A DNA stretch of 64,000 bases from an uncultured Victivallales bacterium (lineage in GTDB: Bacteria; Verrucomicrobiota; Lentisphaeria; Victivallales; UBA1829): assembly GCA_944391115.1 (NCBI GenBank), contig CALXSJ010000009.1:62001-126000 (forward strand), in the 5' to 3' direction. This document shows, piece by piece, positions 1-19,947 of the stretch. The notes beneath the pieces were generated by a model. It did not search any database. It saw nothing but the letters and a program-made list of their open reading frames with translations, and was not told the DNA's origin. Within the stretch, counting starts at the first letter, position 1, and each line of letters opens with the position of its first letter. The translations under genes and the position numbers were made by a program.

Positions 1-1397
1 TCCGTTCCCGGAACTGAAACGGAAATATCACGGCTCTCCCCTCCAAAAACAATCCGTGCGTCATCCGCGTAGAAACGGTCATACAGCACGCGCGGCATCC
101 TCACTTCCACACGCCCGTTTTCCAGCAGATGCGAACTCACCTTCAGGATCGCTCCCGGATTGCTCACGCGATAATGGAAGCGGGAGGCGAGCTCGTCGAA
201 CGCCGTCATTCCGCGCACGTCGCTGGCGGTCGTCACGACCGCCTTTCCGCCCGTGATCCGCGCAACATCCGAAGCCAGACGGTTTGCGCCGCCGATGTGA
301 CCGCTCAGCAGACTGACCGCATAGTCCCCGCGCTCGTCGCAGACCACCACCGCCGGATCCGATGTCTTGCTTCCGCACAACGGCGCGATATGCCTGACCA
401 CAATGCCCGCCGCCATCACCATGACAAATCCGCGGTAAATCCCCCACGCCTGCGCAATCGCCTGTTTCGACCTTCCGTCCGGATAAATGACGCGGCGGTG
501 TTCCGGAACAAGCGACGCATATTTTTCCGGCACGAACACATCGGCTTCCGTGAGCCCGGAAGCAATCTCCAGCGCCTTGGCGATTCCTTCGCGCGTCATG
601 CCGAACACCGCGCATTTCCCCCGGAACGGCTCCGTTCCGGCAGCGGCGCGGTAACCGTGCGCAAAGTTGCGGTCGTAAAGAGACGAGAGTCCGCCCTGTT
701 CGCGGTTCAGCGCCTTCCCGACCACGATCATCGCCTGACGCTTGATCCCGGCTTCCGCGACGCGTTCGGCAATATCCGCCAGCGTGCCGCGCACGATTTT
801 CTCATTCTCCCAGCTTGCGCGGTAGACGACGGCAACCGGTGTATCCTCCGGACGGCCCGCCGCGCGCAGTTTTCCGATCAGCGCACGCATGTTCCCCGCG
901 CTCAGGAAGATGCACATCGTGCAGTCATGCGCGGCAAGGGAGGGAAGCGCCTCCTTCTCCGGCACCGGCGTGCGGCCCGCGTCGCGGGTCATGATGACGC
1001 TCATGCTCAGTCCCGGCATCGTGTATTCCGTCTTCAGCGCGGCGGCCGCGGCGAACGCGCTGCTCACGCCGGGCACGACTTCATAGGGTATATCCTGTTT
1101 ATCCAGTTCGCGGTACTGCTCGGACACCGCCCCGTACATCGCGGGATCTCCGGTATGCAGACGCACCACACTCTTCCCCGCATGATACCCATTGCACAAC
1201 AGCGCAAGCACCTCATCCAGGGAAAGTTTCGCACTGTTGACCAGTTCCGCGTTCCGCGCGTAGTCCAGCAGTTTCTCATTCACCAGCGAACCGGCGTAAA
1301 CCACCAGGTCCGCACGCTTCAGCGCCTCCGCCCCGCGGACCGTAATCAGATCCGGCGCGCCGGGACCCGCGCCGACAAATGTAATTTTTCCGTTCAT
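1..1397 (-). CDS. cobM-cbiG: CobM-CbiG fusion, partial (precorrin-4 C11-methyltransferase + CbiG)
   Basis: Two consecutive steps of corrin-ring synthesis appear on one polypeptide. Residues about 1-252 are a tetrapyrrole methylase of the CobM/CbiF type: a glycine-rich start VGAGPGAPDLITVRG at residues 7-21 and a TGDPAMYGA motif near residue 90. From about residue 258 the chain continues without a stop into CbiG, which opens the precorrin-5A lactone in the anaerobic route, with TREGIAKALEIA, AAGIVVRHIAPL and SGHIGGANRLA as recognisable CbiG stretches. About 465 codons are visible and the 3' end lies beyond base 1. The ATG at 1397-1395 overlaps the TGA of cbiET (ATGA), so translation is probably coupled. 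The methylase acts on C11 using SAM in the cytosol. I translated the reverse strand directly; no frame break was seen at the domain junction. Confidence 0.88.
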   Translation of the reverse strand, partial: MNGKITFVGAGPGAPDLITVRGAEALKRADLVVYAGSLVNEKLLDYARNAELVNSAKLSLDEVLALLCNGYHAGKSVVRLHTGDPAMYGAVSEQYRELDKQDIPYEVVPGVSSAFAAAAALKTEYTMPGLSMSVIMTRDAGRTPVPEKEALPSLAAHDCTMCIFLSAGNMRALIGKLRAAGRPEDTPVAVVYRASWENEKIVRGTLADIAERVAEAGIKRQAMIVVGKALNREQGGLSSLYDRNFAHGYRAAAGTEPFRGKCAVFGMTREGIAKALEIASGLTEADVFVPEKYASLVPEHRRVIYPDGRSKQAIAQAWGIYRGFVMVMAAGIVVRHIAPLCGSKTSDPAVVVCDERGDYAVSLLSGHIGGANRLASDVARITGGKAVVTTASDVRGMTAFDELASRFHYRVSNPGAILKVSSHLLENGRVEVRMPRVLYDRFYADDARIVFGGESRDISVSVPGT

Positions 1398-2608
1398 AAA
1401 TCCCCTTTCTTCGCAAAAACCGCAAGCGTGACCGGATTCTCCGCCCTGCAGCAGAAGCTTCCGGCAAGCGGAAGAGCGCGGGCGACATTCAGCGTCAGAA
1501 GCTCGCGCCGGTATTCCTGCAATACGCTCGACAGGACGCAGACGCTCCCGACAAGAACCGCCGTCGCGGCAAGGACCCCTCCGGGAGCCAGGCGCGCAAA
1601 GGATTGTTTCAGAATCTCTTCCAGCTCCGCCCCGCCGCCTCCGGCAAAGACGAAATCCGGGTCGGGAAGCTCTTTTTCCTTTTCGGAAAACGCCCCTTCG
1701 CAGAGATGATAGTTTTCGAGATTCTCCCGCTCGGCGTTGCAGCGGATATTCGCCGCGCGGGAGCCGGAGCGTTCGACGGCGTAAACCTGAAGCGCGGGAC
1801 ACAGCCCCGCCGCCTCCAGTCCGACCGAACCGCTGCCCGCGCCGACATCCCACATCACGCCGGCATGCAGGCGCAGTTTGGAGAGAATGACTGCGCGCAC
1901 CTCCGGATGCGTAATCACATTGCCGTCATGCACATACGACGCATCATCCAGTCCAAGAGGCAGCTCCGGCGCGTTGGAAGAGGGAAACAGGACGAGAATC
2001 GAAAGCGAACGGTCCGCGCGCGTGTCGTCGGCAAGCGCCCCTAGTGTGGAGGTTTCCACCCATTCGGATGCCGTCCCGAGGTCGCATCCGGCGGCGGCGC
2101 GCCGTGCAGCGCTTCCGGGATATGCCGCAATCAGTTCCGAAGCAATGCGCTGCGCGGAGCGTTTCGCGTCGCAGTAAATGACGGCGAGTCCGGAAGAAAG
2201 CATCCGCCGCCAAGGAAGAGTCTCTTTCCCGTGCACGCTGAAATGCGACGCCTTCTCCCACGGAATTCCCAGTTTTGCAGACAAAACCTGAAACGCCGTC
2301 ACCTGCGGGTGAAACCGCAGGCTCTCCCGGGGGAAATACTGGAGGAGCGTCCCTCCGATCCCGTTGTAAAGCGGATCGCCGGAAGCCAGAACAAGCGCAC
2401 GCCTTCCCTTCAGACGTTCCGCAAGCGCACCGGGATCGCGCAGAGCTGTTCCGTCCAGTTCGATTTTCCGCGCGGAACACTCGCCAAGGAGCGCAAGAAC
2501 GCGGCGTCCTCCGGCGATCACTTCCGCCTGCGCGGCAAGCGTCCGCACTTCCGGACTCAATCCCGAAGCGGACACTCCCGCCACATCAATCCATGGTTCC
2601 TTCTTCAT
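1394..2608 (-). CDS. cobL: Bifunctional precorrin-6Y methylase/decarboxylase (CbiET, CobL)
   Basis: A 404-residue fused CbiE-CbiT enzyme of the CobL type. It methylates C5 and C15 of the corrin ring and decarboxylates the C12 acetate side chain. The N-terminal half is CbiE, with VLASGDPLYNGIGGTL as its GDP-type methylase motif. The C-terminal half is CbiT, with THPEVRAVILSKL followed by a class I SAM motif, DVGAGSGSVGLE. The length matches the family. I start it at the ATG MKKEPWIDV, because that codon overlaps the cbiD stop as ATGA; a longer reading extending back through cbiD in another frame is only a shadow. It ends in another ATGA overlap with the CobM-CbiG gene, so all three are probably translated in a coupled manner. 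Confidence 0.93.
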   Translation of the reverse strand: MKKEPWIDVAGVSASGLSPEVRTLAAQAEVIAGGRRVLALLGECSARKIELDGTALRDPGALAERLKGRRALVLASGDPLYNGIGGTLLQYFPRESLRFHPQVTAFQVLSAKLGIPWEKASHFSVHGKETLPWRRMLSSGLAVIYCDAKRSAQRIASELIAAYPGSAARRAAAGCDLGTASEWVETSTLGALADDTRADRSLSILVLFPSSNAPELPLGLDDASYVHDGNVITHPEVRAVILSKLRLHAGVMWDVGAGSGSVGLEAAGLCPALQVYAVERSGSRAANIRCNAERENLENYHLCEGAFSEKEKELPDPDFVFAGGGGAELEEILKQSFARLAPGGVLAATAVLVGSVCVLSSVLQEYRRELLTLNVARALPLAGSFCCRAENPVTLAVFAKKGDL

Positions 2609-3684
2609 AAGATTCTCTCTCCCGAGTCCTGGTAAAGCGCAATTTCCGTTTTCATATCGTTTCCGCCCCATGCTGCAAGATATTCCATCGCCCTGTCGCG
2701 GCACCGGAGCAGAATCGTCCGGTAAAGGTCCGGCGGCAGCGCGGAAGCAAGTTCCCCCATGGACGAAAAATGTTCCAGCTCCACATCGGCGGGAAGCTCC
2801 GGGACGATTTCGCGGAGACGCGGAAGCATCATCACAGCCTTGTGCGCATGCGTATTGCGCTCGCCGCAGGCATATTTGAAGAGCTTCCCCGCCATGCAGC
2901 CGACGATCAGGCGTTTCAATCCCGCCTTCTTTGCCGCGTTTACGGCCGTGTAAATAAAGTCGCCGATCCGGATGATCTCCCGTTCGCCGAGGAACGGAAA
3001 ATCCCCTGCCAGCGCGGCGGCCGTGCGTCCCCCCGTCGCCAGCGCCGCGCAACTGCCCCCCTCCGCCGCGATGCAACGGAGCTGAAGCGCAATCGAGGCG
3101 GCATAGGCGGCGTTGGAATACGGATACACGATCCCCGAATTGCCGAGAATGGAGATGCCGCCCGTAATTCCGAGCACGGGATTGAGCGTCTTTTCCGCGA
3201 GAACCTCTCCTTCCGGCACCTCGATCCGGACAACCAGACGCTCCGCAGTGCGCCCGAATCCGGCAAGCGCGAGATTCTCCGCAATCATGCGGCGCGGCCC
3301 CGGATTCACGGCATAGTGTCCGGGCGGCACATCGAGTCCGGGACGGGTCACGGTTCCGACCCCGCGCCCGCCGCGCAGAAACAGCGTCCCCTTCCCGCAC
3401 GGAACCTCGAATTCGCGCGGATCCGGTTTGTCCGGCGGGAAAAGCGTGACAACAATATGCGCGCCCGTCGTTACATCCGGATCGTCCCCGCCGTCCTTCC
3501 GCACGACCGCGCGGAAGGGCGCAGCTTCCAGAACAGGCACTTCGAGAAAGGAACCGTCCGGCAGGCGGAGCGAAATCCTTTCGCATTTCGCCCCGGTCCC
3601 GCAGCAGAGATACGCGGCGCACGCGGCCGCAGCGGCGGCGCTTCCCGTCGTATATCCGCATCGCAATGACACCGTTTCCGTCAT
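2605..3684 (-). CDS. cbiD: Cobalt-precorrin-5B C1-methyltransferase CbiD
   Basis: A 359-residue CbiD protein. It carries the family hallmark GYTTGSAAAAAACAAYL near the N terminus, a conserved N-P-R-R segment (VNPGPRRMIAENLA) and a glycine-rich central part (GITGGISILGNSG). CbiD methylates C1 after the CbiG step and is specific to the early-cobalt, oxygen-independent route, so together with CbiG it marks this pathway as anaerobic. The start at MTETVSLRCGYTTGS is chosen because GGAG lies 10 bases upstream and the family normally begins just before GYTTG. The gap to cbiC is one base, and its stop overlaps the cbiET start. Confidence 0.94.
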   Translation of the reverse strand: MTETVSLRCGYTTGSAAAAAACAAYLCCGTGAKCERISLRLPDGSFLEVPVLEAAPFRAVVRKDGGDDPDVTTGAHIVVTLFPPDKPDPREFEVPCGKGTLFLRGGRGVGTVTRPGLDVPPGHYAVNPGPRRMIAENLALAGFGRTAERLVVRIEVPEGEVLAEKTLNPVLGITGGISILGNSGIVYPYSNAAYAASIALQLRCIAAEGGSCAALATGGRTAAALAGDFPFLGEREIIRIGDFIYTAVNAAKKAGLKRLIVGCMAGKLFKYACGERNTHAHKAVMMLPRLREIVPELPADVELEHFSSMGELASALPPDLYRTILLRCRDRAMEYLAAWGGNDMKTEIALYQDSGERIL

Positions 3685-3685
3685 A

Positions 3686-4351
3686 TCAGGCGTTCTCCAT
3701 GATTCCGTGAAGCGCGGCGACCGCAAGCGGACTCCCCCCGCGGCGGCCTTCCAGAACGATATGCGGCACATCCGTCAGGCGCAGAAGCTCCTTTGATTCC
3801 GTCACGTTCACAAATCCGACCGGCATTCCGACAATCAGCGCGGGACGGACAACTCCGTCAGCAATCAGTTCCATCAGCCCCGCAAGCGCAAGCGGCGCGT
3901 TGCCGCAGAGGAAAATCGCGCCGTCAAGCTCGCGTGCCGAAAGACGCACCGACGCCAGTGCGCGGGTGATCCCTTCGCGCGCGGCGAATTCCGCTACGGC
4001 GGGCTCCGCAACCGGGCAGAGGATCGACTCGCGCGAATACGCCGCGTGAAAGCGTTTCAGCTTCGGAACCGAGAGCCCCGCGCGGATCATGTTCGAATCC
4101 GAATAAATGCACGCCCCGGCGCGGAGCGCCGCAAGTCCCGCCTCAACGGGATCGTTCCGGAAGACAAGCGAGTCCAGAATCGAAAAATCGGCGCTCGTAT
4201 GCACCAGGCGCCGGGCGACATGCCATTCCGCCTCCGAAAAACGCTCCCGCGCCTCCGGACGCACTTCCGCATCGATTCTGCGGAAGCTTTCGCGCTCGAT
4301 TCCGGCGCCGTCGCTGTTCCATGCAATCGCGTCAAACAAAGGGTTTCTCAT
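3686..4351 (-). CDS. cbiC: Precorrin-8X methylmutase (CbiC/CobH)
   Basis: A 221-residue methylmutase that moves the C11 methyl group to C12 to give hydrogenobyrinate or cobyrinate. The segment RRLVHTSADFSI holds the histidine expected for catalysis in this family. The middle part, with GACIYSDSNMIRAGLS, and the C-terminal IVGMPVGFVNVTESKELL are typical, the latter close to the substrate-binding region. Length is normal. It lies two bases after the cobO stop and one base before cbiD, so it is clearly part of the riboswitch-controlled run of genes. The two-base gaps imply that ribosomes reinitiate from the upstream genes. Confidence 0.95.
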   Translation of the reverse strand: MRNPLFDAIAWNSDGAGIERESFRRIDAEVRPEARERFSEAEWHVARRLVHTSADFSILDSLVFRNDPVEAGLAALRAGACIYSDSNMIRAGLSVPKLKRFHAAYSRESILCPVAEPAVAEFAAREGITRALASVRLSARELDGAIFLCGNAPLALAGLMELIADGVVRPALIVGMPVGFVNVTESKELLRLTDVPHIVLEGRRGGSPLAVAALHGIMENA

Positions 4352-4353
4352 TT

Positions 4354-4875
4354 TCAGAAGTCCAGTCCTTTCAATGCCGGGACGCCGTTCCGGTACGGGT
4401 GCCGCACTTCGCCGATCTCCGAAACGAGATCGCAGAGGTTCAGCACGTCTTCCGGCGCATGGCGTCCGGTGATGACGACATGCAGTCCGGGTCTTTTCTC
4501 TTTCAGGGCGCGGGAAACCTCCTCCGCGCCAACCATCCCGTGCGACAGCGCAATATTGAGTTCGTCGAGAATCAGAAGCTCTCCGTCGAAATCTTTCAGA
4601 AGCTCTTCTGCACGCTTCCAGCCTTTCCGAGCGGCCGCCGCGTGGTCGCCTGGCTGATTCGTGCGCCCGATCCCGTGCTGTTCAAAAATCATATCGGGGA
4701 AATATTTATGGAAAAAGCGCATCTCCCCGGTCTCGCGCGGTCCTTTCACGAACTGCACGACGGCAACGCGCCAGTCCCATCCGAGCGCGCGGAGCGCAAC
4801 CCCGAGCGCGGCGGAAGTCTTTCCCTTGCCGTTTCCGGTGAAATTGAGAATCAGACCTTTTTCCGCATCTTCCAT
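4354..4875 (-). CDS. cobO: Cob(I)yrinic acid a,c-diamide adenosyltransferase (CobO/BtuR)
   Basis: A 173-residue CobA/CobO/BtuR-type corrinoid adenosyltransferase. It has a P-loop GNGKGKTSAALG near residue 13, a VVQFVKGPRETGE segment, and LLILDELNIALSHG as the Walker B-like region. It transfers the 5'-deoxyadenosyl group from ATP to reduced corrinoid, which both builds AdoCbl and salvages imported corrinoid. I place the start at ATG 4875 (MEDAEKG). A TTG six bases upstream would overlap the preceding stop and is less likely. It is two bases after the CobD-CobQ gene and two bases before cbiC. Confidence 0.94.
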   Translation of the reverse strand: MEDAEKGLILNFTGNGKGKTSAALGVALRALGWDWRVAVVQFVKGPRETGEMRFFHKYFPDMIFEQHGIGRTNQPGDHAAAARKGWKRAEELLKDFDGELLILDELNIALSHGMVGAEEVSRALKEKRPGLHVVITGRHAPEDVLNLCDLVSEIGEVRHPYRNGVPALKGLDF

Positions 4876-4877
4876 GC

Positions 4878-7439
4878 TCAAAGCCCCATCATTCTGTAAA
4901 TTGTCTTCATATCGACACGCGAGCGGACATGATCGGCAAGACGGTTCAGCGACTCCTCGATCCCGTAGTGCACCTGCACCGTCCCGAGCGGCGCAAGGGA
5001 GCGCGAAACGCGCACGCGGTCCAGGAAGAAACGCCGGAACGCGTCATCGTCGAACACGCCGTGCAGATAGGTTGTGAAAATCCGTCCGCGCGTGTAGCCG
5101 ATCACCGCTCCGGTGTCGGAACAATGCTCCTCGACCTCATCCCCCACGGGGTGCGTCACGCCGTGATGAATCTCGTAGCCGGAAACGGGCATGCCGAAAC
5201 AGGTTCCGCGCGTCCGCCGCAGAATCTTTTCCCGCTTCATCTCCGTCACCAGCGGAAGGAGCCCCAGGCAGGGCGTATCGGAAGAGTCCGACTCCACGCC
5301 GAGCGGATCGAGCAGACTTTTCCCCGCCATCTGAAGACCGCCGCAGATCCCGACATACCATGCGCCGTTCCCGACGGCCTCGCGGATCTTCCGCGCCAGG
5401 CCCCGACGCTCCAGATCCGCCATGTCGGAGGCCGTCCCCTTGCTTCCGGGAACGATCACGATGTCCGGGCATCCGAACGCGTCGGCGGAACCGATCTTCC
5501 GGACAGTCACGTCCGGTTCAAGCTCAAACGGAACGAAGTCCGTAAAGTTCGCGATGTGTCCGGTATGAATCAGGACGGCATCCAGGGTTTTCGCGTGTTT
5601 CGGCACGTCCCGGACAAAGGAGAAATTCACGGAATCCTCCTCGGGAAGTCCCAGATCGCGCTGAAAGTCGATCACGCCGAGAACGGGCCGTCCCGTATAG
5701 GCGGCGACCTCCCGATGGGCGGAATCCAGAAGGGAGGGATCGCCGCGGAACTTGTTCACAAGGAAGCCCCTGAGAAGCCCGCGCTCCCAGGGTTCAAGCG
5801 TCGCGTAAGTTCCGATAAAGGAAGCGTATACGCCGCCGCGGTCGATGTCACCGACAAGCAGGACCGGACTCCCGGCATACTGCGCCATGCGCATATTCAC
5901 GATGTCATTTGCCTTGAGATTGATCTCTCCCGGACTCCCCGCACCCTCCAGCACAATCGCCTGATATTCGTTCCGGAGCGAATCATAACTGGATTTCACA
6001 ATTTCCAGGAATTCCGGTTTGCGGGCGTAAAACTCCCGGACGCGCAGATTTCCGACGGGCTTTCCCAGCACAATCACCTGACTTCCCGTATCGCTGTTCG
6101 GCTTGAGGAGAACCGGATTCATGCGGACGTCGGGATCCAGCCGGCACGCCTCCGCCTGCACCGCCTGCGCCCGGCCGATTTCGCCGCCGGAGAGCGTGAC
6201 AAACGAATTCAGCGCCATATTCTGCGCCTTGAACGGCGCAACGTGGATTCCGTCCTGAAGCAGAATCCGGCAGAAGGCTGCAACCAGCACGCTCTTGCCC
6301 GCGTTCGAACTCGTTCCCTGAAGCATCAGGGCGGGCGTGATCCGCTTCCGGGGGATGAATGCGGACGGGTTCGCGCTCTTCCGCTCCCCTTCCCCGGAGA
6401 GAGAGGAAAGCGCGGAAAGAAAACGGAGATTGTCCGCTTCGGAACGGACAGCGACGCGGACATGACGGGCGGAAAGTCCCGGATAGTCCGCACACCTGCG
6501 CACCGCGATGCGATGTTCGGTCAGCAGACGGTCCGCCAGTTCCGGAGAGGGTATGCGCAGAAGAAGATAGTTCGCCTGCGACGGATAAACCTTCACGCGC
6601 GGAATCCTCCGGAGCTCCGAGGCGAACGCCTCGCGCAGACGCGCAGTCTCCTTCCGGCTTGATTCGGCAAACGCGCCGTCCAGCGAAAAGACCGCCTCCA
6701 TCAGCGCACAGGAAACCGCTCCGAGCGCCCAGCAGGGCTGGAGCTCCTTCAGGCGGGTGATTATGGATGGATCGCCAAGCGCGTATCCCATGCGCACGCC
6801 GCCGAGCGAATAGAATTTCGTCAGCGAACGCGTCACAACCAGATTCGGCAGAATCGTGTTTCCGAGGGAATATTCCGGACAGAAATCCACGAAGGCCTCA
6901 TCCATCACGAAAACAACCTCCATCCGGCGCGCAATCAGCTCCCGGAGCACGGAGGGCGCAACCGCGTTTCCCGCGGGATTCCCCGGATTGCCGAGCATCA
7001 GGAGATCGCCGGGGCGCAGAAACGCGTCGAGCGCGGAAATGTCAAGCCGGAACCCCTCCTCCTCGCACAGCGGGAAGTGAACGACCGGAAGTTCCGCCGC
7101 ACGGCATGCCGTCTCGTAATCCAGATACCCCGGCGTCACGATCACCGCGCGGGAGGCATTCAACGCGCGCGGCAGAAGATTCAGCAATTCCGAGGAACCG
7201 TTTCCCGGAAGCACACAGGTCTCCGGGCAGCCGAGTTTCGCGGCGATGCGCTCCGACACGCGCTCGCCATGCGGATCGGGATATGGGGAAACGGAATCGA
7301 ACGTGCGGAACCAGGTTTTGAAAAGCCCCTGCGGCATTCCGCACGGATTCAGGTTCACGCTGAAGTCGCAGATCTCCTCCGGCGCGCAGCGGGCAAGCGC
7401 GGCAAGTTTCCGGAGATTTCCGCCGTGTTCCGCGCTCAT
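4878..7439 (-). CDS. CobD-CobQ fusion: threonine-phosphate decarboxylase-like + adenosylcobyric acid synthase
   Basis: An 853-residue protein joining two cobalamin enzymes. Residues 1 to about 350 are a fold-type I PLP enzyme like CobD/CobC, which makes aminopropanol phosphate; LTKFYSLGG places the PLP lysine at K208 and VMDEAF gives the cofactor aspartate D180. After a short linker, residues about 364-853 form CobQ/CbiP, the amidase making adenosylcobyric acid. This half has a P-loop-like QGTSSNAGKS at 374-383, the glutaminase nucleophile C699 in GICGGLQMAG and H793 in TTYLHGVFDD. Both halves look intact, so the fusion could couple side-chain amidation with supply of the nucleotide-loop linker. 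It overlaps the ATPase gene by ATGA. The two functions are usually separate proteins. Confidence 0.92.
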   Translation of the reverse strand: MSAEHGGNLRKLAALARCAPEEICDFSVNLNPCGMPQGLFKTWFRTFDSVSPYPDPHGERVSERIAAKLGCPETCVLPGNGSSELLNLLPRALNASRAVIVTPGYLDYETACRAAELPVVHFPLCEEEGFRLDISALDAFLRPGDLLMLGNPGNPAGNAVAPSVLRELIARRMEVVFVMDEAFVDFCPEYSLGNTILPNLVVTRSLTKFYSLGGVRMGYALGDPSIITRLKELQPCWALGAVSCALMEAVFSLDGAFAESSRKETARLREAFASELRRIPRVKVYPSQANYLLLRIPSPELADRLLTEHRIAVRRCADYPGLSARHVRVAVRSEADNLRFLSALSSLSGEGERKSANPSAFIPRKRITPALMLQGTSSNAGKSVLVAAFCRILLQDGIHVAPFKAQNMALNSFVTLSGGEIGRAQAVQAEACRLDPDVRMNPVLLKPNSDTGSQVIVLGKPVGNLRVREFYARKPEFLEIVKSSYDSLRNEYQAIVLEGAGSPGEINLKANDIVNMRMAQYAGSPVLLVGDIDRGGVYASFIGTYATLEPWERGLLRGFLVNKFRGDPSLLDSAHREVAAYTGRPVLGVIDFQRDLGLPEEDSVNFSFVRDVPKHAKTLDAVLIHTGHIANFTDFVPFELEPDVTVRKIGSADAFGCPDIVIVPGSKGTASDMADLERRGLARKIREAVGNGAWYVGICGGLQMAGKSLLDPLGVESDSSDTPCLGLLPLVTEMKREKILRRTRGTCFGMPVSGYEIHHGVTHPVGDEVEEHCSDTGAVIGYTRGRIFTTYLHGVFDDDAFRRFFLDRVRVSRSLAPLGTVQVHYGIEESLNRLADHVRSRVDMKTIYRMMGL

Positions 7440-8233
7440 GGAAGCACCTCTTTCCCGCGGCAGGAGCCGGACGGCAGAATAAAGGGAATGCCGCCGTCAT
7501 CCAGCATCACCCGCGCCTCGATATGGAACACCTCGCGCAGAAACGCGGGCGTGAGAATCTCCCGGGGCGTCCCGACACGGAATACACGACTGTCCCGGAT
7601 TGCCGCGAGACGGTCCGAGCAGCGCGCGGCAAGATTCAAGTCGTGCAGCACCATCAGCACGGTAATTCCAAGTTCGGCGTTCAAACGCCGCACCAGTTCG
7701 ATCACTTCGAACTGGCAGCAGACATCCAGAAAAGTCGTCGGTTCGTCGAGAAGCAGAACCTTCGGCTCCTGCGCAAGCGTCATCGCGATCCATGCACGCT
7801 GCCGTTCCCCGCCGGAAAGGTTCGCGATTCTGCGCGAGGCCAGATCCGCAAGACGCGTCATCGACAGAATGCGCTCGACCACCTCGCGGTCATGCGCGGA
7901 AGGCGCGCGCCAGTTTCCATGGTGCGGAAAGCGCCCGCACTCCACCAGACTCCGCACGGTCGCGTCCTCCGGCGCAGAGTGAATCTGCGGAAGCACGGCA
8001 AGCTGTTTCGCCAGAAGCGCGGTGTTCATCGCATGGACGCTTTTCCCGTCCAGCAGGACCGCCCCGCCCTGCGGTTTCAGAATGCGCGCAACGGTTTTGA
8101 GAAGCGTGGACTTTCCGCACCCGTTCGGCCCGATGAACGTCAGAATCTCCCCCGAAGCGACGGAGAGACTCAGCTGATCGATCACGCGGTTCGAAGCGTA
8201 TCCCGCGCACAGTTCCGCAATGTCAAGCTTCAT
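7436..8233 (-). CDS. ABC transporter ATPase, corrinoid/iron-chelate type (BtuD/FecE-like)
   Basis: A 265-residue ABC ATPase. It shows Walker A GPNGCGKST near residue 36, the signature NLSGGERQRAW, Walker B VLLLDEPTTFLD and the switch histidine in MVLHDLNLA. These proteins power FecCD-type importers for vitamin B12, haem and siderophores. Sequence alone does not set the substrate, but position between a riboswitch, a permease, a binding protein and cobalamin synthesis genes points to a corrinoid. Its start overlaps the permease end by 11 bases and its end overlaps the CobD-CobQ start by ATGA. Confidence 0.92.
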   Translation of the reverse strand: MKLDIAELCAGYASNRVIDQLSLSVASGEILTFIGPNGCGKSTLLKTVARILKPQGGAVLLDGKSVHAMNTALLAKQLAVLPQIHSAPEDATVRSLVECGRFPHHGNWRAPSAHDREVVERILSMTRLADLASRRIANLSGGERQRAWIAMTLAQEPKVLLLDEPTTFLDVCCQFEVIELVRRLNAELGITVLMVLHDLNLAARCSDRLAAIRDSRVFRVGTPREILTPAFLREVFHIEARVMLDDGGIPFILPSGSCRGKEVLP

Positions 8234-9233
8234 GATCCGCGCTCCTTCTCAGAAGATAGAGGAAAAACGGCGGTCCCAGCAGGGCGAGAATGATCCCGGC
8301 AGGCAGTTCGACGGGGTCCATCGCGATCCGCCCGACCGTGTCGCAGCAGACCAGCATCCCCGCCCCGAAAAGCGCCGCGCCCGGCAGGAGGTAACGGCAG
8401 TCGGAACCGATCATCAGGCGCACGACATGCGGCGCGATCAGCCCGACAAAGCCGAGAAGCCCGACGACGCTCACGGACGCCGCCGCCAGAAGCGCGCTCA
8501 AGGCAAGCAGGATCACGCGCATGAGCTCCACGCGGAGCCCGAGCCCGGCCGCCACCTCGTCCCCGAGCGCCAGAATGTTCAGGGACCGCGCCAGAAGAAA
8601 CGACGCAAAAGCGCCGCAGACAATGTACGGCCAGATCAGACGCACCTGCGTCCAGGACTTCGCGGAAAGACTCCCGATCATGAAATCCAGCACCACCACC
8701 GCACGCTCTGAATTGAACAGAAGCAGCATGCTCACCAGCGCGCTCAGCATGCTTGCGACCGCCACGCCGGAGAGGATCAGCCGCACCGGCTGAATCCCCC
8801 CCTTCCAGGCAAGCGCGTAAACCAGCACCGCCGTCGCCAGCGCCCCCAGAAACGCCGCGGGGACAAGGAGTTCCGAGAATTGCGGCAGGAGAAGCAGGAT
8901 CCCCACGGCCGTCAGCGCGCCGCCGGAAGATACCCCGATGATTCCCGGCGCGGCAAGCGGATTGCGCATGACGCCCTGCAGAATCGCGCCGGAAAGGGCG
9001 AGCGCCGCGCCGACCAGTCCCCCGAGCAGCACACGCGGAAGACGGATATGATACAGAATCAGCCATTCAGTCGAACCGTCCGCCGCCAGGAGTTTTTCCA
9101 GAATCGAAATGCAGGAAAGGTTCAGCGAGCCGCAGCGCATGGAAAACAGGAATGCCGCCAGACAGAAACATCCCAGCAGGATCAAAACCGCAATCCGGAA
9201 TCCGGTGCGCTGTCTGATGTCCGATCCGCTCAT
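8223..9233 (-). CDS. FecCD-family corrinoid transporter permease (BtuC-like)
   Basis: A 336-residue, strongly hydrophobic inner-membrane permease of the BtuC/FecCD family, of normal length for the roughly ten-helix fold. It has the family pattern LPRVLLGGLVGAALALSGA after the first extracytoplasmic segment, GIIGVSSGGAL, and the coupling-helix region GDEVAAGLGLRVE that contacts the ATPase. The C terminus contains LLGFVGLIAPHVVRL, also diagnostic. A long alternative reading of the same bases in another frame is a GC shadow. It overlaps the binding-protein stop by ATGA and the ATPase start by 11 bases. Confidence 0.93.
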   Translation of the reverse strand: MSGSDIRQRTGFRIAVLILLGCFCLAAFLFSMRCGSLNLSCISILEKLLAADGSTEWLILYHIRLPRVLLGGLVGAALALSGAILQGVMRNPLAAPGIIGVSSGGALTAVGILLLLPQFSELLVPAAFLGALATAVLVYALAWKGGIQPVRLILSGVAVASMLSALVSMLLLFNSERAVVVLDFMIGSLSAKSWTQVRLIWPYIVCGAFASFLLARSLNILALGDEVAAGLGLRVELMRVILLALSALLAAASVSVVGLLGFVGLIAPHVVRLMIGSDCRYLLPGAALFGAGMLVCCDTVGRIAMDPVELPAGIILALLGPPFFLYLLRRSADHEA

Positions 9234-10168
9234 TTTCCGTTTTTCTCCGTTCTCATTTCCGGATAAAGAAGTTCCGCAAGCTTCCGGAATGCATCGGGAT
9301 ACCGTTTCCCCGGCAGATACAGAAACATTTCCGGCTCCAGCATATAAACGCGACCGCTTCTCACCGCCTTCAAATTACGCCATTCCATCCGTTTGTCAAG
9401 ATCCGCGCGCACACTTGCGGCACTTTTTCCCTCCGGTCCGGTGCGGAGGAGAAAAATCACATCCGGATCCGCAAGCATCAGCTGCTCCATGCTGAATTTC
9501 ACACGGACGGGTGACGCCCCCGGAACAACATTGCGCGCACCGAGACGGGCCGCCATGTTCGCGGTATTGCCGTGCGGCGTCTCGGAAAGGAAACCGTCCC
9601 CCGCCGCAATCATGCAGAGGAAAGAGGGTTTCGCATGCGCTTCGGCGGCGCGGCACAGCGCATCCACCTCGTCCGCAATGCACTTGCGCAGCGCGAAAGC
9701 TTCGGGAGGATTGCCGTTCAGACGGGCGAAGAAGTCGAGCAGGCGCAGGAAGTCGTCATAGTTCGCATAATCGACGCAGACGCTCTCCACGCCGGCGGCG
9801 CGGAGCAGTTTCTGAATCTCCCAGTGCTTTCCTCTTTTACTGTGGAGAAGAACCAGATCGGGATTCAGCGAAAGGAGTTTTTCCATATCCGGATTGTAGT
9901 AGTTCCCGACATCGGGCAGGTCCCGCGCCGCTTCGGGAAGCACGCGGAGACGCGGCGCATGGGGCCGGGCGACGGCCTTTCCTCCTGCCGCATACCAGAT
10001 TCCTGTCAATGAGATGTGCAGCACGACGGCGCGTTTCGGGCGTTTGTGAACCGTCACGGTTTCGCCGTTGCGCTGCCGGAAGGAGAGCGTTTCCGCCGTC
10101 TCGGAGATCATTTCAGCGGAGAGCAGCAGAGGAAGCAGCCATAAAACAGCGAACGGGATTCCCTTCAT
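9230..10168 (-). CDS. Periplasmic corrinoid-binding protein (BtuF-like)
   Basis: A 312-residue substrate-binding protein of the BtuF/FhuD class (type III, two lobes joined by a helix). It begins with a signal peptide, [19 protein letters not shown]. Typical signs are the repeated pattern [12 protein letters not shown] in the first lobe and [15 protein letters not shown] in the second. It would hand corrinoid from the periplasm to the permease. I start at ATG 10168, which overlaps the pseudopilin stop as ATGA, rather than at an upstream codon inside that gene. The operon shows no TonB-dependent BtuB receptor, so the outer-membrane step is unexplained here. Confidence 0.88.
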
Positions 10169-11115
10169 TCTGAGATGCTCCACGGATCATAGTACAGATT
10201 GTTGTCCGGACCGAATGTCCCGATCCTGCGCAGACGCAGAAACGCAATGGCGCCTGCCTCCTTTTCGTTGACATGCGAGAGATTCTTTTCCGAAGAGGCA
10301 TGCCCGTCCGCCCACAGGACATTCGCCGCACCGGCATGCCGGAAATGAATGCCGCAGCCGTTGGTCGCAAGATCCCCCTTCTCCGAGTCGAACGGCCCGA
10401 GCTGGCGGGTGTCCGAAGCGCTGCTTCCGACGGAATAAACTCCGTACATGTCCGGATAGGCAACGACCTCGCCGAGGGCAAAGGAGATCGGAGGACTCGC
10501 GTAATCGCCGAAAACAATGGTCTGCGACGGCTGTTCAATCTGGGAATCCTTCAATCCGAATCCCCGGTACATGGAACGGCTCCCCGTCTGATAATACAGA
10601 GAGGAACCGATATTCACATTGTAGGCGTATCCGCCGGAACCGGTCACGGTCAGCCCGTCACCGGGAACGGCGTTCTGCTCCATGGATGGGCATTTGAGCG
10701 AATGAAGCGTTTCCCGGGAAAGATAATCCCCGAGATATCCCCGCTTCAGATCCCATTCATACACGGAATTGTCTCCGTATTTTCCGCCGGCCTTGCTTCC
10801 CTTGTATCCCATCCAGGATTTTTTGGACTTCGTCACACCCCCGGATTCATAGATCGGCATATTGTAATCCCAGTCGCCGGAATAGAACTTCCACGCCGTC
10901 CCGATCTGCTTCAGATTCGAGGCGCACTGAATCCCCTTCGCCTTCTCCCGCGCAATCGCGAGCGCAGGCAGAAGCATTCCCGCGAGAATCGCGATCATCG
11001 CAATCACGACGAGGAGCTCCACGAGGGTGAAAAAGCGTTTTTCCTTTTCTTTCACGATTCGCCCGGCGGGAACATCCGCGGGCCGGCAGGAGGGGGAGAT
11101 CGAACGATGCGGCAT
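10165..11115 (-). CDS. Pseudopilin-like (type II secretion/H-X9-DG) protein, first gene of the B12 operon
   Basis: A 316-residue exported protein with a class III (prepilin) signal: a basic leader ending KEKEKRF, then [24 protein letters not shown] with Glu at +5. The residue before the expected cleavage site is Phe, not the usual Gly. The C-terminal half contains [16 protein letters not shown], the H-X9-DG motif of the large PVC pseudopilin family (DUF1559-like). It starts 35 bases after the terminal hairpin of a cobalamin riboswitch, with AAAGGA eight bases before the ATG, and its stop overlaps the BtuF gene by ATGA. Context therefore ties it to corrinoid supply. A GTG at 11055 is an alternative start with a shorter leader. 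Confidence 0.85.
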
Positions 11116-11149
11116 GATGTTTCATCCTTTGTGTTACGCGCACAATCCG

Positions 11150-11177
11150 GGCCGGCATCCGCTTTGCAACACCGGCC
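11150..11177 (-). promoter_or_regulatory. Riboswitch regulatory hairpin with loop complementary to the aptamer
   Basis: GGCCGG (11177-11172) pairs with CCGGCC (11155-11150) around a 16-nt loop. The loop contains GTTGC (11170-11166), the exact complement of GCAAC (11220-11216) in the aptamer. In known cobalamin riboswitches a kissing interaction between loop L5 and the loop of the regulatory hairpin is how ligand binding is sensed, so this fits L5-L13. No U-run follows the hairpin, and the ribosome-binding site lies about 20 bases on, which suggests control of translation rather than termination. Confidence 0.75.
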
Positions 11178-11189
11178 ATAAAACAAATC

Positions 11190-11261
11190 GACCGCACCAG
11201 GACCCGACTATAACGGTTGCGCGACAGCTTCGGACTCACACCGAATTCACTGCATGCGGTC
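11190..11261 (-). ncRNA. Cobalamin riboswitch aptamer (compact)
   Basis: On the minus strand, the segment has the cobalamin riboswitch core GGTGTGAGTCCG at about 11242-11231, then a CGCGCAACCGT block and a B12-box-like AGTCGGGTCCTGG at about 11209-11197. The ends pair as P1: GACCGCA (11261-11255) with TGCGGTC (11196-11190), seven perfect pairs. It sits directly upstream of genes for B12 import and synthesis, exactly as expected for feedback control. The core of about 72 nt is short, resembling the compact class II form. A covariance-model search with the Rfam cobalamin families would confirm it. Confidence 0.9.
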
Positions 11262-15634: not shown

Positions 15635-16411
15635 TCACTGGACCAGCCGGAACGGATAACGGTTCCAGTTGCTTCCGCCGATCGAGGCAGTCTGAATCAT
15701 TCCGGGATTGGCGGGAGCCGGATCGGTCGTGCTTCTGCGATCCGTGGAAAACTTGAAAAAAGATCCCAGCACACGGTAACTGACATTTTCCACATGGAGG
15801 TCCAGAAAGAGCATGCAGCTTCTCCTCGCATGGGGGAAGTACATGGGATAATCCGCCATCCGGGGACCGTCCGCCGCCCAGGCGAGGAGGGAAGTCCCGG
15901 CGGGCACTGAGCCGGGCTTGAAAAAGGAAACCTCCTCCGCCCCCTGCCTGTAAACATAGCCGTAATGGTAATTTGTGGTTCCCATGAGATTTCCGTCGCC
16001 GACATTGGGGTTCATTGCCGTCGTCACATGGTAGGGCTGGCCCTCGACACCATTAATGGAAGGGCATTTCAAAAGACTGGAGTCCCGTTTGGAGAAATCC
16101 GCCGGCGCTCTCAGATATCCCTCATTCTGCAGGAAGGAATAGATCAGTCTTCCCTTGTAGGGATAGGGCGCTCCGGTGCTCCAGCCTTTGTTGTCCGAGG
16201 CATACAGCATGAAAACCACTCCCAGCTGTTTCCGCTTGTTCTGGCAGGATGCGGAGTATGCCATGTCGCGTGCCTTGCTCAACGCGGGAAGAAGCATCCC
16301 GGCAAGAATCGCGATGACAGCAATCACGACCAGAAGCTCGATCAAGGTAAAATCGAGTCTGTCCGCGCCTCTTGCGGAAGACGCCGCGGAAAATGCGGAT
16401 GCATGTTTCAT
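15635..16411 (-). CDS. Pseudopilin-like prepilin-type N-methylation protein
   Basis: A 258-residue exported protein with a 20-residue leader ending GADRLD, followed by [24 protein letters not shown], the class III signal plus N-terminal helix. The residue before the expected cut is Asp rather than Gly. The globular part is small and contains an Ala-Arg-Arg-Ser-Cys block (FPHARRSCMLFLDLHVEN) that looks like a decayed H-X9-DG motif. Its ATG has GGAG about ten bases upstream and overlaps the LacI stop as ATGA. Placement between a LacI regulator and a secreted glycan-active protein suggests a role in displaying or exporting the enzyme or capturing its substrate. Confidence 0.85.
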   Translation of the reverse strand: MKHASAFSAASSARGADRLDFTLIELLVVIAVIAILAGMLLPALSKARDMAYSASCQNKRKQLGVVFMLYASDNKGWSTGAPYPYKGRLIYSFLQNEGYLRAPADFSKRDSSLLKCPSINGVEGQPYHVTTAMNPNVGDGNLMGTTNYHYGYVYRQGAEEVSFFKPGSVPAGTSLLAWAADGPRMADYPMYFPHARRSCMLFLDLHVENVSYRVLGSFFKFSTDRRSTTDPAPANPGMIQTASIGGSNWNRYPFRLVQ

Positions 16412-17451
16412 TGATTCCGAGCTCCTCTCTCCTTTGTGCCGCGGTATGCGGCGGTTGATTCCATCGGAACAAAAACGGATTTCACAAGATATGTTCCAGG
16501 AGGATCCGCTTCCAGGGCGCATTTCCCGTTCAGGAGCAGCGAGGCGGCATTGACGCCGATCTCCACGGGACGGTATCTGGAATGGGAAAAGGGCACCAGA
16601 GAGTAAGCGGCCGTCTGGGAATCCTCGCAGAATCCGGCGAGGGACAGATCGCGCGGAATGGAAAAGCCGTTCCGGAGCATGAAGCGGGCAATGTCGCAGA
16701 TCCAGGCGGGGGCGACAGCCGCAACGGCGGAAACCTTCTTGTCTTCCGGAAGCGTCAGGAGAGTGTGCAGGCCCTCCCGGTTCGGGTATTCGCCGCATGT
16801 CTGCCATTCGGGAAAAACAGGAAGCCCCGCGTCCCGCATCGCCTGCTCGTATCCCCGGTGACGCTCCCGGTTGACGTAGCGCGTATGCGGCGAACAGACC
16901 AGACCGATTGCGCGGTGCCCCAGACGGATCAGGTGCGAAACGATTTCATACATCGCCGAGAAATTGTCCATCAGAACGCCGGGAAAGCCGAACCCTGCGG
17001 GACTGTTTGCAAAAACCAGGGAAAAGGACATTTTCCTGCAGTATGCGGCAGTCTCCCGGCAGACAGACTCGTCCACGGAAATCAGAATCACGCGTTCAAT
17101 CCTCTGGGAAGCTATCCCGGCAAAGGTTTTTTCCAGATTTTCCGCGCCGTAAAGATGAACACAGTATCCTTCCGATGCGGCCGTCTGCTGGATGCCATAC
17201 AGAATTTCGCTGCCATTGCGCATGGAGGCGTAATCGCCCCAGTTCGTAATCACGGCGATGGTTTTCACGATACCCGTCCGGATGGAGCTCGCCAGCAGAT
17301 TCGGATGATAGTTCAGCTCGCGCGCGATGTTCTCGATTCTCCGCCGCGTGGCGGCGGACACCCCGGAATTCCCGCGGTGGTTCAGAACGGTGGAAACAGC
17401 CATGACGGAGACTCCCGCCCGTTCCGCAATCATTTTCAAAGTCACCGCCAT
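16408..17451 (-). CDS. LacI/GalR-family transcriptional regulator
   Basis: A 347-residue regulator. Residues 1-55 form a LacI helix-turn-helix (TLKMIAERAGVSVMAVSTVL, then hinge-helix region YHPNLLASSIRT). The rest is a periplasmic-binding-like effector domain with typical RVILISVDES and GHRAIGLVCSPHTRY segments. It heads the pseudopilin, DUF4838 and M20 operon and overlaps the next gene by ATGA. A near-palindromic TAACGTTA operator lies between its own -10 element and its start, so it probably represses itself and the operon until a sugar-like inducer appears. Confidence 0.93.
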   Translation of the reverse strand: MAVTLKMIAERAGVSVMAVSTVLNHRGNSGVSAATRRRIENIARELNYHPNLLASSIRTGIVKTIAVITNWGDYASMRNGSEILYGIQQTAASEGYCVHLYGAENLEKTFAGIASQRIERVILISVDESVCRETAAYCRKMSFSLVFANSPAGFGFPGVLMDNFSAMYEIVSHLIRLGHRAIGLVCSPHTRYVNRERHRGYEQAMRDAGLPVFPEWQTCGEYPNREGLHTLLTLPEDKKVSAVAAVAPAWICDIARFMLRNGFSIPRDLSLAGFCEDSQTAAYSLVPFSHSRYRPVEIGVNAASLLLNGKCALEADPPGTYLVKSVFVPMESTAAYRGTKERGARNQ

Positions 17452-19092: not shown

Positions 19093-19947
19093 ATGCAGAA
19101 TCCAGCAGATGCCGTCGAGTATTTCCGGATGTATCCGCAGCTCTTCACTTTCTGGTGTGCCATTGTTTTTGTGTTCGGATGCTGCATCGGCAGTTTTCTG
19201 AATGTCTGCATCTGGCGGGTTCCGCGCGGGATGTCCGTGGTGTCGCCGCCGTCGCACTGCCCGAAATGCGGCCACGAAATCACGCCGCTGGAAAACATTC
19301 CGCTTCTGAGCTGGATTTTTCTCCGGGGCAGATGCCGGTCCTGCCGCGAGCCCATCACGATCCGTTATTTTCTTGTGGAGCTCGTCACGGGGCTCCTGTT
19401 CGCGCTGATTTTCCTGAAGACCGCCGCATCGGGAGAACCGCTGACACTGCTGATCCCCTGTTTCATCATGACGGCGATACTGATCTGCAGCGCGTTCACG
19501 GACTGTGAACTGGGAATCATTCCGGATGAATTCACTTATCTGGGAATGGCCGGCGGCATTCTGTCGGCCCTGCTGTTCCCGTCTGCCTGGCATCTGGAAT
19601 CCCGCATCACGGCGTTTCTGCTGAGTCTGGGGTCTCTGGCCGCGGCGGGAGGGCTGATGGCGCTCTGCGCGGTCGCGGGCAGAAAGATTTTCCGCCGCGA
19701 GGCGCTCGGCTGGGGCGATGTGAAGTTCATTGCGGCGGCAGGCGCGCTGACCGGACTGCCCGGGGCGCTGTTCAGCGTGGTGGCGGGATCCCTGGCGGGG
19801 CTTCTTGCCGCGCCATTCCTGCGCCTGATCCCCAAATACAGGAAACGCAGGACGCTCCGCTTCGGTCCCTTTCTGGCGTTCGGGATGCTGCTCTGGATTT
19901 TTTTCGGGAAAGAGCTTGTCGGAATGTATCTTCGAATTTTGAATTGA
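19093..19947 (+). CDS. pilD: Prepilin peptidase/N-methyltransferase (PilD/GspO)
   Basis: A 284-residue polytopic aspartyl peptidase that cleaves class III leaders and methylates the new N terminus of pilins and pseudopilins. The two catalytic aspartates are visible: D137 in FTDCELGIIPDE and D209 in GWGDVKF. A zinc-type cytoplasmic loop carries two CxxC pairs (C56/C59, C81/C84), and NVCIWRVPRG is typical of the N-terminal domain. About eight membrane helices are expected. It is the only processing enzyme in the window for the three pseudopilins here, all of which have a non-glycine residue before the cut. No pilus or secretion assembly genes sit beside it. Confidence 0.95.
   Translation: MQNPADAVEYFRMYPQLFTFWCAIVFVFGCCIGSFLNVCIWRVPRGMSVVSPPSHCPKCGHEITPLENIPLLSWIFLRGRCRSCREPITIRYFLVELVTGLLFALIFLKTAASGEPLTLLIPCFIMTAILICSAFTDCELGIIPDEFTYLGMAGGILSALLFPSAWHLESRITAFLLSLGSLAAAGGLMALCAVAGRKIFRREALGWGDVKFIAAAGALTGLPGALFSVVAGSLAGLLAAPFLRLIPKYRKRRTLRFGPFLAFGMLLWIFFGKELVGMYLRILN

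Follow-up and report, generated by a model that had tools for sequence, protein, structure and literature searches.

A subfamily of type IV pilin-like proteins encoded behind cobalamin riboswitches belongs, as far as sequence can tell, with corrinoid uptake in several phyla. The association was first noted in a single operon of the window analysed here (64,000 nucleotides from an uncultured Victivallales bacterium), and it is both real and larger than that preliminary description had it. The first gene of the operon encodes a pseudopilin, and we consider it likely that this protein works for corrinoid uptake at the cell surface, as a dedicated component under cobalamin control.

A cobalamin aptamer and a pseudopilin at the head of a corrinoid operon

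The operon lies on the minus strand and is headed by a cobalamin riboswitch aptamer (11190–11261) that is closest to AdoCbl-II (RF01689; 31.5 bits, E 2.2e-5 in 701 bases). The match is full-length, covering model positions 1–81, and btu, cob and cbi genes lie downstream of it. Its score is below the Rfam gathering value of 36.5, and an Rfam scan of the whole window at gathering scores gave no match, the aptamer being visible only at an E-value threshold. At E 0.1, it was the sole RF01689 match in the bacterium's own genome (genome-wide E 2.7e-5). The corresponding place in three congeners scored 36.1, 36.1 and 33.7 bits, and the counterpart in Victivallis vadensis DSM 14823 reached 39.3 bits, above gathering. 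Because of these scores in relatives, we take the window aptamer to be real; because its own score stays below gathering while that of V. vadensis passes, we keep to the wording 'closest to AdoCbl-II'. Furthermore, aptamers linked to the pilin in relatives, two of them partial, share the core letters when compared by eye. Folding of the leader gave a stability no better than that of shuffled sequences (z 0.07). Cobalamin riboswitches usually switch genes on at low cobalamin, and hence the pilin is predicted to be produced when cobalamin is scarce.

A Shine-Dalgarno-like AAAGGA, read from the sequence at 11125–11130, stands before the ATG (11115) of the first gene. This gene (10165–11115) encodes the pseudopilin, recognized by PF07596, TIGR04294 and a predicted pilin fold, with a prepilin leader, an FTLVE helix from 11031, a DUF1559 domain, an FRH...DGH core and a C-terminal tail of its own. 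Its stop and the start of btuF (10168) share ATGA. Model matches and the sequence itself thus confirm the coordinates and layout originally described, in which an H-X9-DG pseudopilin comes first after the aptamer and overlaps btuF.

Behind the pseudopilin come a BtuF-like periplasmic binding protein (9230–10168; PF01497, 69.2 bits), a BtuC-like permease (8223–9233; PF01032, 303.5 bits) and a BtuD-like ATPase (7436–8233; PF00005, 115.5 bits); a binding protein, a FecCD permease and an ATPase in a single operon have the layout of a BtuFCD importer. Corrinoid is its putative substrate, a reading supported by the riboswitch and the cob/cbi context. The equivalog cut-offs were unreached: the BtuF model NF002894 gave 30.5 bits (cut-off 234), the best NCBIfam match of the permease was a BtuC model at 268.5 bits (cut-off 461), and FecE-type and corrinoid ATPase models stayed under their cut-offs. 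Next in the operon is a CobD-CobQ fusion (4878–7439), in which a threonine-phosphate decarboxylase-like (CobD-like) domain and cobyric acid synthase form one protein of 853 residues (NF001989, 565.7 bits, cut-off 273; TIGR01140, 280 bits, just below 290.55). It is followed by a CobO/BtuR corrinoid adenosyltransferase (4354–4875; PF02572, 175 bits), the precorrin-8X methylmutase CbiC (3686–4351; PF02570, 217.8 bits), CbiD (2605–3771; TIGR00312, 272.1 bits, cut-off 200; PF01888, 241.7 bits) and an ORF with CbiE and CbiT domains (1394–3661; TIGR02467, 111 bits, and TIGR02469, 109.2 bits, both above cut-off, residues 364–702). As the N-terminal part of this ORF overlaps CbiD, its true start is probably further in. 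The operon had been described as one for a B12 importer. The importer is there, but an importer-only reading does not hold, since the CobD-CobQ, CobO, CbiC, CbiD and CbiET genes follow. With btuFCD ahead of cob and cbi genes, the operon combines import with synthesis; because the two share an operon, the import may be salvage.

A distinct pilin subfamily

The pseudopilin has both a prepilin N-terminus and a pilin fold, as judged from its prepilin segment, an AlphaFold2 model and the pilins at the top of its list of similar structures. Its only Pfam match is PF07596 (DUF1559; 30.3 bits, above the cut-off of 23.3), with a DUF4465 domain absent from the same scan. TIGR04294, the H-X9-DG domain, matches at 22.2 bits (cut-off 19), and the GspG equivalog TIGR01710 stays at 26.9 bits, below its cut-off of 88.85. 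The model is that of a confident pilin (pLDDT 82.8, pTM 0.84) with an N-terminal helix at residues 3–54. Its VIA structural neighbours, Thermus PilA4 (6xxd; Z 5.5) and GspG (3g20; Z 4.4), are modest ones, and Foldseek with the model gave no match at E 0.001. In a PDB sequence search, coverage among the matches listed was limited to the N-terminal segment. A candidate processing enzyme, an A24 prepilin peptidase, is encoded outside the operon on the plus strand of the window (19093–19947; PF06750, 125.4 bits; PF01478, 50.2 bits), and the genome contains nine secretin matches. Thus, assembly parts and outer-membrane pore parts exist, and we infer their tie to the window pilin.

The same genome contains 46 DUF1559 matches (PF07596), among which the window pilin alone adjoins the single RF01689 match. 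At 15635–17451 of the window, a LacI-type regulator gene is immediately followed by a second pseudopilin, a hint that further pilins may be linked to other nutrients. The closest named loci are those of Victivallales and Lentisphaeria, with 83–90% identity across the outer part of the pilin. For comparison within the genome we used 31 paralogues, drawn from the best 30 of the 46 PF07596 matches and from the window. Set against these, most riboswitch-linked pilins have in common a C-terminal tail of the pattern G-x-F-G...Y-D-P, and the FRH and DGH residues are invariant in all 30 riboswitch-linked pilins. A profile trained without the window's genus gave four held-out members 122–129 bits, compared with 79 for the best of the 31 paralogues. 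On a tree, the riboswitch-linked label needed 2 changes, compared with 20.6 in shuffles. Judged by profile score and C-terminal tail, the riboswitch-linked pilins are a distinct subfamily.

Pairing of aptamer and pilin in the genus, family and order

A search with RF01689 at E 0.1 in 61 genomes from the bacterium's genus, family and order gave an AdoCbl-II match in 45 of them and 64 matches in total, of which 55 were examined (54 fetched, plus the window). The pilin was the first gene after the aptamer at 30 of the 55 loci, in 15 of 19 genera; 29 were recognized by a script motif and L068 was added by eye. Three of the nine matches left out (G027:C7, G028:C4 and G029:C2) also lie just upstream of a listed pilin. 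As a control, pilins were sought after TPP riboswitches in the same genome set and followed none of 30 (Fisher p 3.7e-8), a sample that covers 30 of 54 matches and includes one (L111) with only 377 bases downstream. The other 25 of the 55 aptamers do not have the pilin first. They include ordinary B12 targets such as NrdD and CbiK, as well as large repeat proteins in the genus g5, and some weak RF01689 matches among them may be false. NrdD, the anaerobic ribonucleotide reductase, follows an AdoCbl-II aptamer at L037, L059 and L070 (the last two by Pfam, the first by eye). At L038, the gene after the pilin resembles NrdG by eye, with a radical SAM domain only.

With 46 DUF1559 matches in one genome, and with some aptamers preceding other genes, it could be supposed that an abundant type of pilin gene landed first in the operon by accident. 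However, the TPP control, the subfamily tests and the linkage across phyla described below rule out a chance neighbour, and riboswitch-pilin units without detected btu genes also argue against it, which leaves such an accident very improbable indeed. Within 6 kb and on the same strand, btu genes were found at 16 of the 30 pilin loci. The queries for them were proteins of the window itself, and a further BtuF-like gene at L080 was missed in that way (17 loci with L080). Ten other pilin loci have at least 4 kb of downstream sequence without a detected btu gene, and at five of these (L045, L057, L067, L073 and L075) the next called ORF is on the opposite strand, which argues that the pilin itself is the regulated target.

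Absence of the pilin from orthologous B12 operons had been named in the preliminary description as the outcome that would speak against its proposal. For the most part this absence was not found, as the order riboswitch, pilin, btu is kept in three congeners and in further relatives. There are exceptions. In family f8 (G042, G049 and G054), the aptamer is present and such a pilin was not found at E 1e-22; in G054 (L039), the aptamer stands ahead of btuFCD without one. What follows the aptamer at f8 loci are HlyD-like and metallophosphoesterase proteins (identified by Pfam at L039 and by eye at L046), which possibly stand in for the pilin. In genus g5, AdoCbl-II aptamers at L048 and L087 (by eye also at L060 and L086) precede very large Chlamydia Pmp/FG-GAP/RTX repeat proteins, apparently another type of surface protein under B12 control.

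Adhesion is a common role of pilins, and a pilin made at low B12 might attach the cell to particles or to B12-producing neighbours, in which case its link with uptake would be ecological rather than biochemical. The large repeat proteins beneath the same aptamer class in g5 would fit such a role. On the other hand, btu genes come after the pilin at 16 of 30 loci (17 with L080) and, elsewhere, B12-binding DUF4465 proteins adjoin it (see below). We therefore regard adhesion as a distinctly improbable explanation, and favour a part for the pilin in uptake itself.

Linkage across classes and phyla

The pairing was also approached from the protein side. A profile of the pilin's outer domain matched 158 of 387 genomes of the phylum at E 1e-22, and riboswitches were searched separately from pilins in chosen genomes (RF00174 in 40 of them, 12 of set A and 27 of set B). 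For 27 of the 36 held-out order-level genomes with a listed pilin, and for 18 of 25 such genomes at the level of class and phylum, the 4 kb ahead of the pilin contained a cobalamin riboswitch in the same orientation; the held-out counts rest on the best pilin places listed, and the omission of some aptamer matches could only lower them. When named genomes were searched, again by protein alone, 80 loci came up, among them those of V. vadensis DSM 14823, Phycisphaerae, Hydrogenedentota, Spartobacteria and Armatimonadota; 64 of the 80 were scanned for riboswitches. Among 37 hand-picked named loci, spanning Planctomycetota, Verrucomicrobiota, Armatimonadota, Hydrogenedentota and others, 28 have an upstream cobalamin riboswitch on the same strand at Rfam gathering (9/11, 11/13 and 8/13). 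Most of the 37 show the signature tail; none was seen in L238, and a looser variant occurs in L264, L286 and Armatimonadota. As for the nine without a riboswitch, eight have less than 2.3 kb of upstream sequence and one (L244) has 8 kb.

Low-scoring loci without a visible tail served as a control, and none of the 11 had a riboswitch, with five of them belonging to Lentisphaerota, where detection is weak. Indeed, gathering-level detection found a cobalamin riboswitch at only 3 of 11 Lentisphaerota loci. One control locus (L282) stops at a contig end, its tail unseen, and is nearly identical to the riboswitch-bearing L286. Another locus, L293, is labelled Alphaproteobacteria and groups with a Phycisphaerae locus on the tree; its label is probably a binning error.

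On this wide tree, the riboswitch label required 7 changes, compared with 32.4 when shuffled. The window's branch groups there with a sister subfamily (L236, L265, L269 and L270) for which no riboswitch was found even at E 0.5; its profile scores, 138–151 bits, exceed those of some riboswitch-linked pilins. This sister subfamily has its own tail, ending ...YNP in most, and in three of the four the next gene encodes a small protein (about 150 residues) whose N-terminus is hydrophobic. Furthermore, L232 has the matching tail, and no riboswitch was found in its 894 bases of upstream sequence. Given the sister subfamily, L232 and the 7 changes on the wide tree, linkage to the riboswitch was gained or lost more than once.

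Surface partners and a possible mechanism

In other classes of the phylum, one long ORF usually lies between riboswitch and pilin, and it contained a DUF4465 domain at five of eight loci scanned. These intervening DUF4465 proteins are related to solved structures such as 9fct, which the accessible part of PMC12751083 gives as BtuJ1 with bound cobalamin. The accessible part of PMC13398666 describes DUF4465 proteins as binding B12; no mention of 'pilin' was found in the paper's main text. A Sedimentisphaerales contig (L253) has, in order, a riboswitch, a DUF4465 protein, a 383-residue protein without a Pfam domain, the pilin, BtuF, BtuD and BtuC. The possibility that the intervening gene in these classes is BtuB was rejected, the scanned proteins having DUF4465, other or no domains. 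The proteins between riboswitch and pilin at L200, L201, L207, L208 and L253 (383 residues) are candidate new corrinoid binders. Those of L200 and L253 have no Pfam domain, and several of the five share, by eye, a DGPGPDFAVFENAF-like motif. PDB sequence searches with the L200, L253 and L257 proteins gave no match at the E-values set.

In the window's order, DUF4465 was found in none of the 61 genomes, the bacterium's own included, and TonB-dependent receptors were found in one (G039). A PF00593 search of the bacterium's own genome gave no match, in agreement with the earlier remark that the operon shows no BtuB. That leaves the pilin as the leading candidate for the outer, surface step in this order, given how rare TonB-dependent receptors are there and that DUF4465 did not turn up. 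A general rule that would confine the pilin to genomes without TonB-dependent receptors was discarded because 32 of 40 class and phylum genomes with such pilins have receptors. The complete chromosome of Planctomycetes bacterium syqfu (L291) has two cobalamin riboswitches near each other, with the pilin behind one and a TonB-dependent receptor behind the other. In the class-level family f10, five genomes have the aptamer-pilin pair and all are without a receptor, whereas in G127, of the same family, a receptor comes shortly after the riboswitch and the pilin is unlinked; this contrast is suggestive, with few genomes behind it.

Taken together, the gene order kept in relatives, the riboswitch linkage across phyla and the near absence of receptors mean that the pilin's tie to corrinoid uptake, as originally proposed, is well supported at the level of sequence and gene neighbourhood. 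In the mechanism that we favour, low corrinoid would lead the riboswitch to permit production of the pilin, which would be trimmed by the prepilin peptidase and would assemble through its helix into a short pseudopilus or fibre. The outward domain might then catch corrinoid directly, or hold or export a corrinoid-binding surface protein, and the captured corrinoid would be handed on to BtuF and BtuCD. That the pilin itself binds corrinoid is a guess, conceivable but on balance doubtful. A further guess, for Victivallales and relatives without TonB-dependent receptors, seems to us unlikely: a pseudopilus devoted to B12 would capture corrinoid outside the cell and pull it through a secretin-like pore towards BtuF, in place of the outer-membrane step of BtuB.

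The pilin could also work without ever touching corrinoid, by serving, within a pseudopilus resembling that of type II secretion, as the component specific for the export of corrinoid-binding surface proteins (DUF4465 proteins and others). Its GspG-like N-terminus, a fold nearest to PilA4 and GspG, the long ORFs, with DUF4465 or otherwise, immediately ahead of the pilin in other classes and the nine secretin matches in the genome all fit a role as an export adaptor. However, DUF4465 is found in 0 of 61 genomes of the window's order, and at five loci the next ORF after the pilin lies on the opposite strand. We would therefore not expect export to be the explanation, while giving it clearly more weight than adhesion, and we retain a dedicated part in corrinoid uptake as the probable role of the pilin.

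Comparison with known systems

DUF1559 pilins occur by the dozen per genome in these phyla, with 74 such genes in Rhodopirellula baltica according to the accessible part of PMC2754498, and their role is not settled. Because the riboswitch names the nutrient, one subfamily is now testable with a known ligand. A wider but unlikely reading has the many DUF1559 pilins of these phyla acting as receptors for particular nutrients, with the window pilin as the first whose ligand can be named. The proposed role would offer an answer to how a molecule the size of B12 gets past the outer membrane in bacteria seemingly without BtuB and other TonB-dependent receptors, and would bring a pilin into the set of envelope proteins that have been co-opted for scavenging vitamins. 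A literature search by title and abstract opening, which covered subscription papers sparsely and preprints not at all, found no report of a B12-controlled pilin.

The nearest known counterpart is the riboswitch-controlled corrinoid uptake of Bacteroides, for which the accessible part of PMC12751083 lists BtuB, BtuG, BtuH, BtuJ, BtuK and BtuFCD. The two systems share control by a cobalamin riboswitch and surface proteins encoded with btuFCD and, in other classes and in Planctomycetota, the DUF4465 proteins of the pilin operons recall BtuJ. In contrast to the lipoproteins and TonB-dependent receptor of Bacteroides, however, the window operon starts with a type IV pilin-like protein, and in its order DUF4465 was found in 0 of 61 genomes and such receptors in 1 of 61. 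With the DUF1559/H-X9-DG-CTERM pseudopilins of Planctomycetes and their relatives (PF07596, TIGR04294), the window pilin shares the prepilin segment, the DUF1559 domain and the H-X9-DG motif, but it differs from the others in its own tail, its invariant FRH and DGH residues and its linkage to a cobalamin riboswitch. It resembles GspG and type IV pilins in fold (PilA4 and GspG) and in the sequence of its N-terminal segment, yet scores under the pilin equivalog cut-offs and has a larger globular domain. Finally, the pseudopili of competence, which serve in DNA uptake, would be the precedent for drawing a nutrient across the outer membrane by means of a pilus; the system described here differs from them in ligand, operon and regulation.
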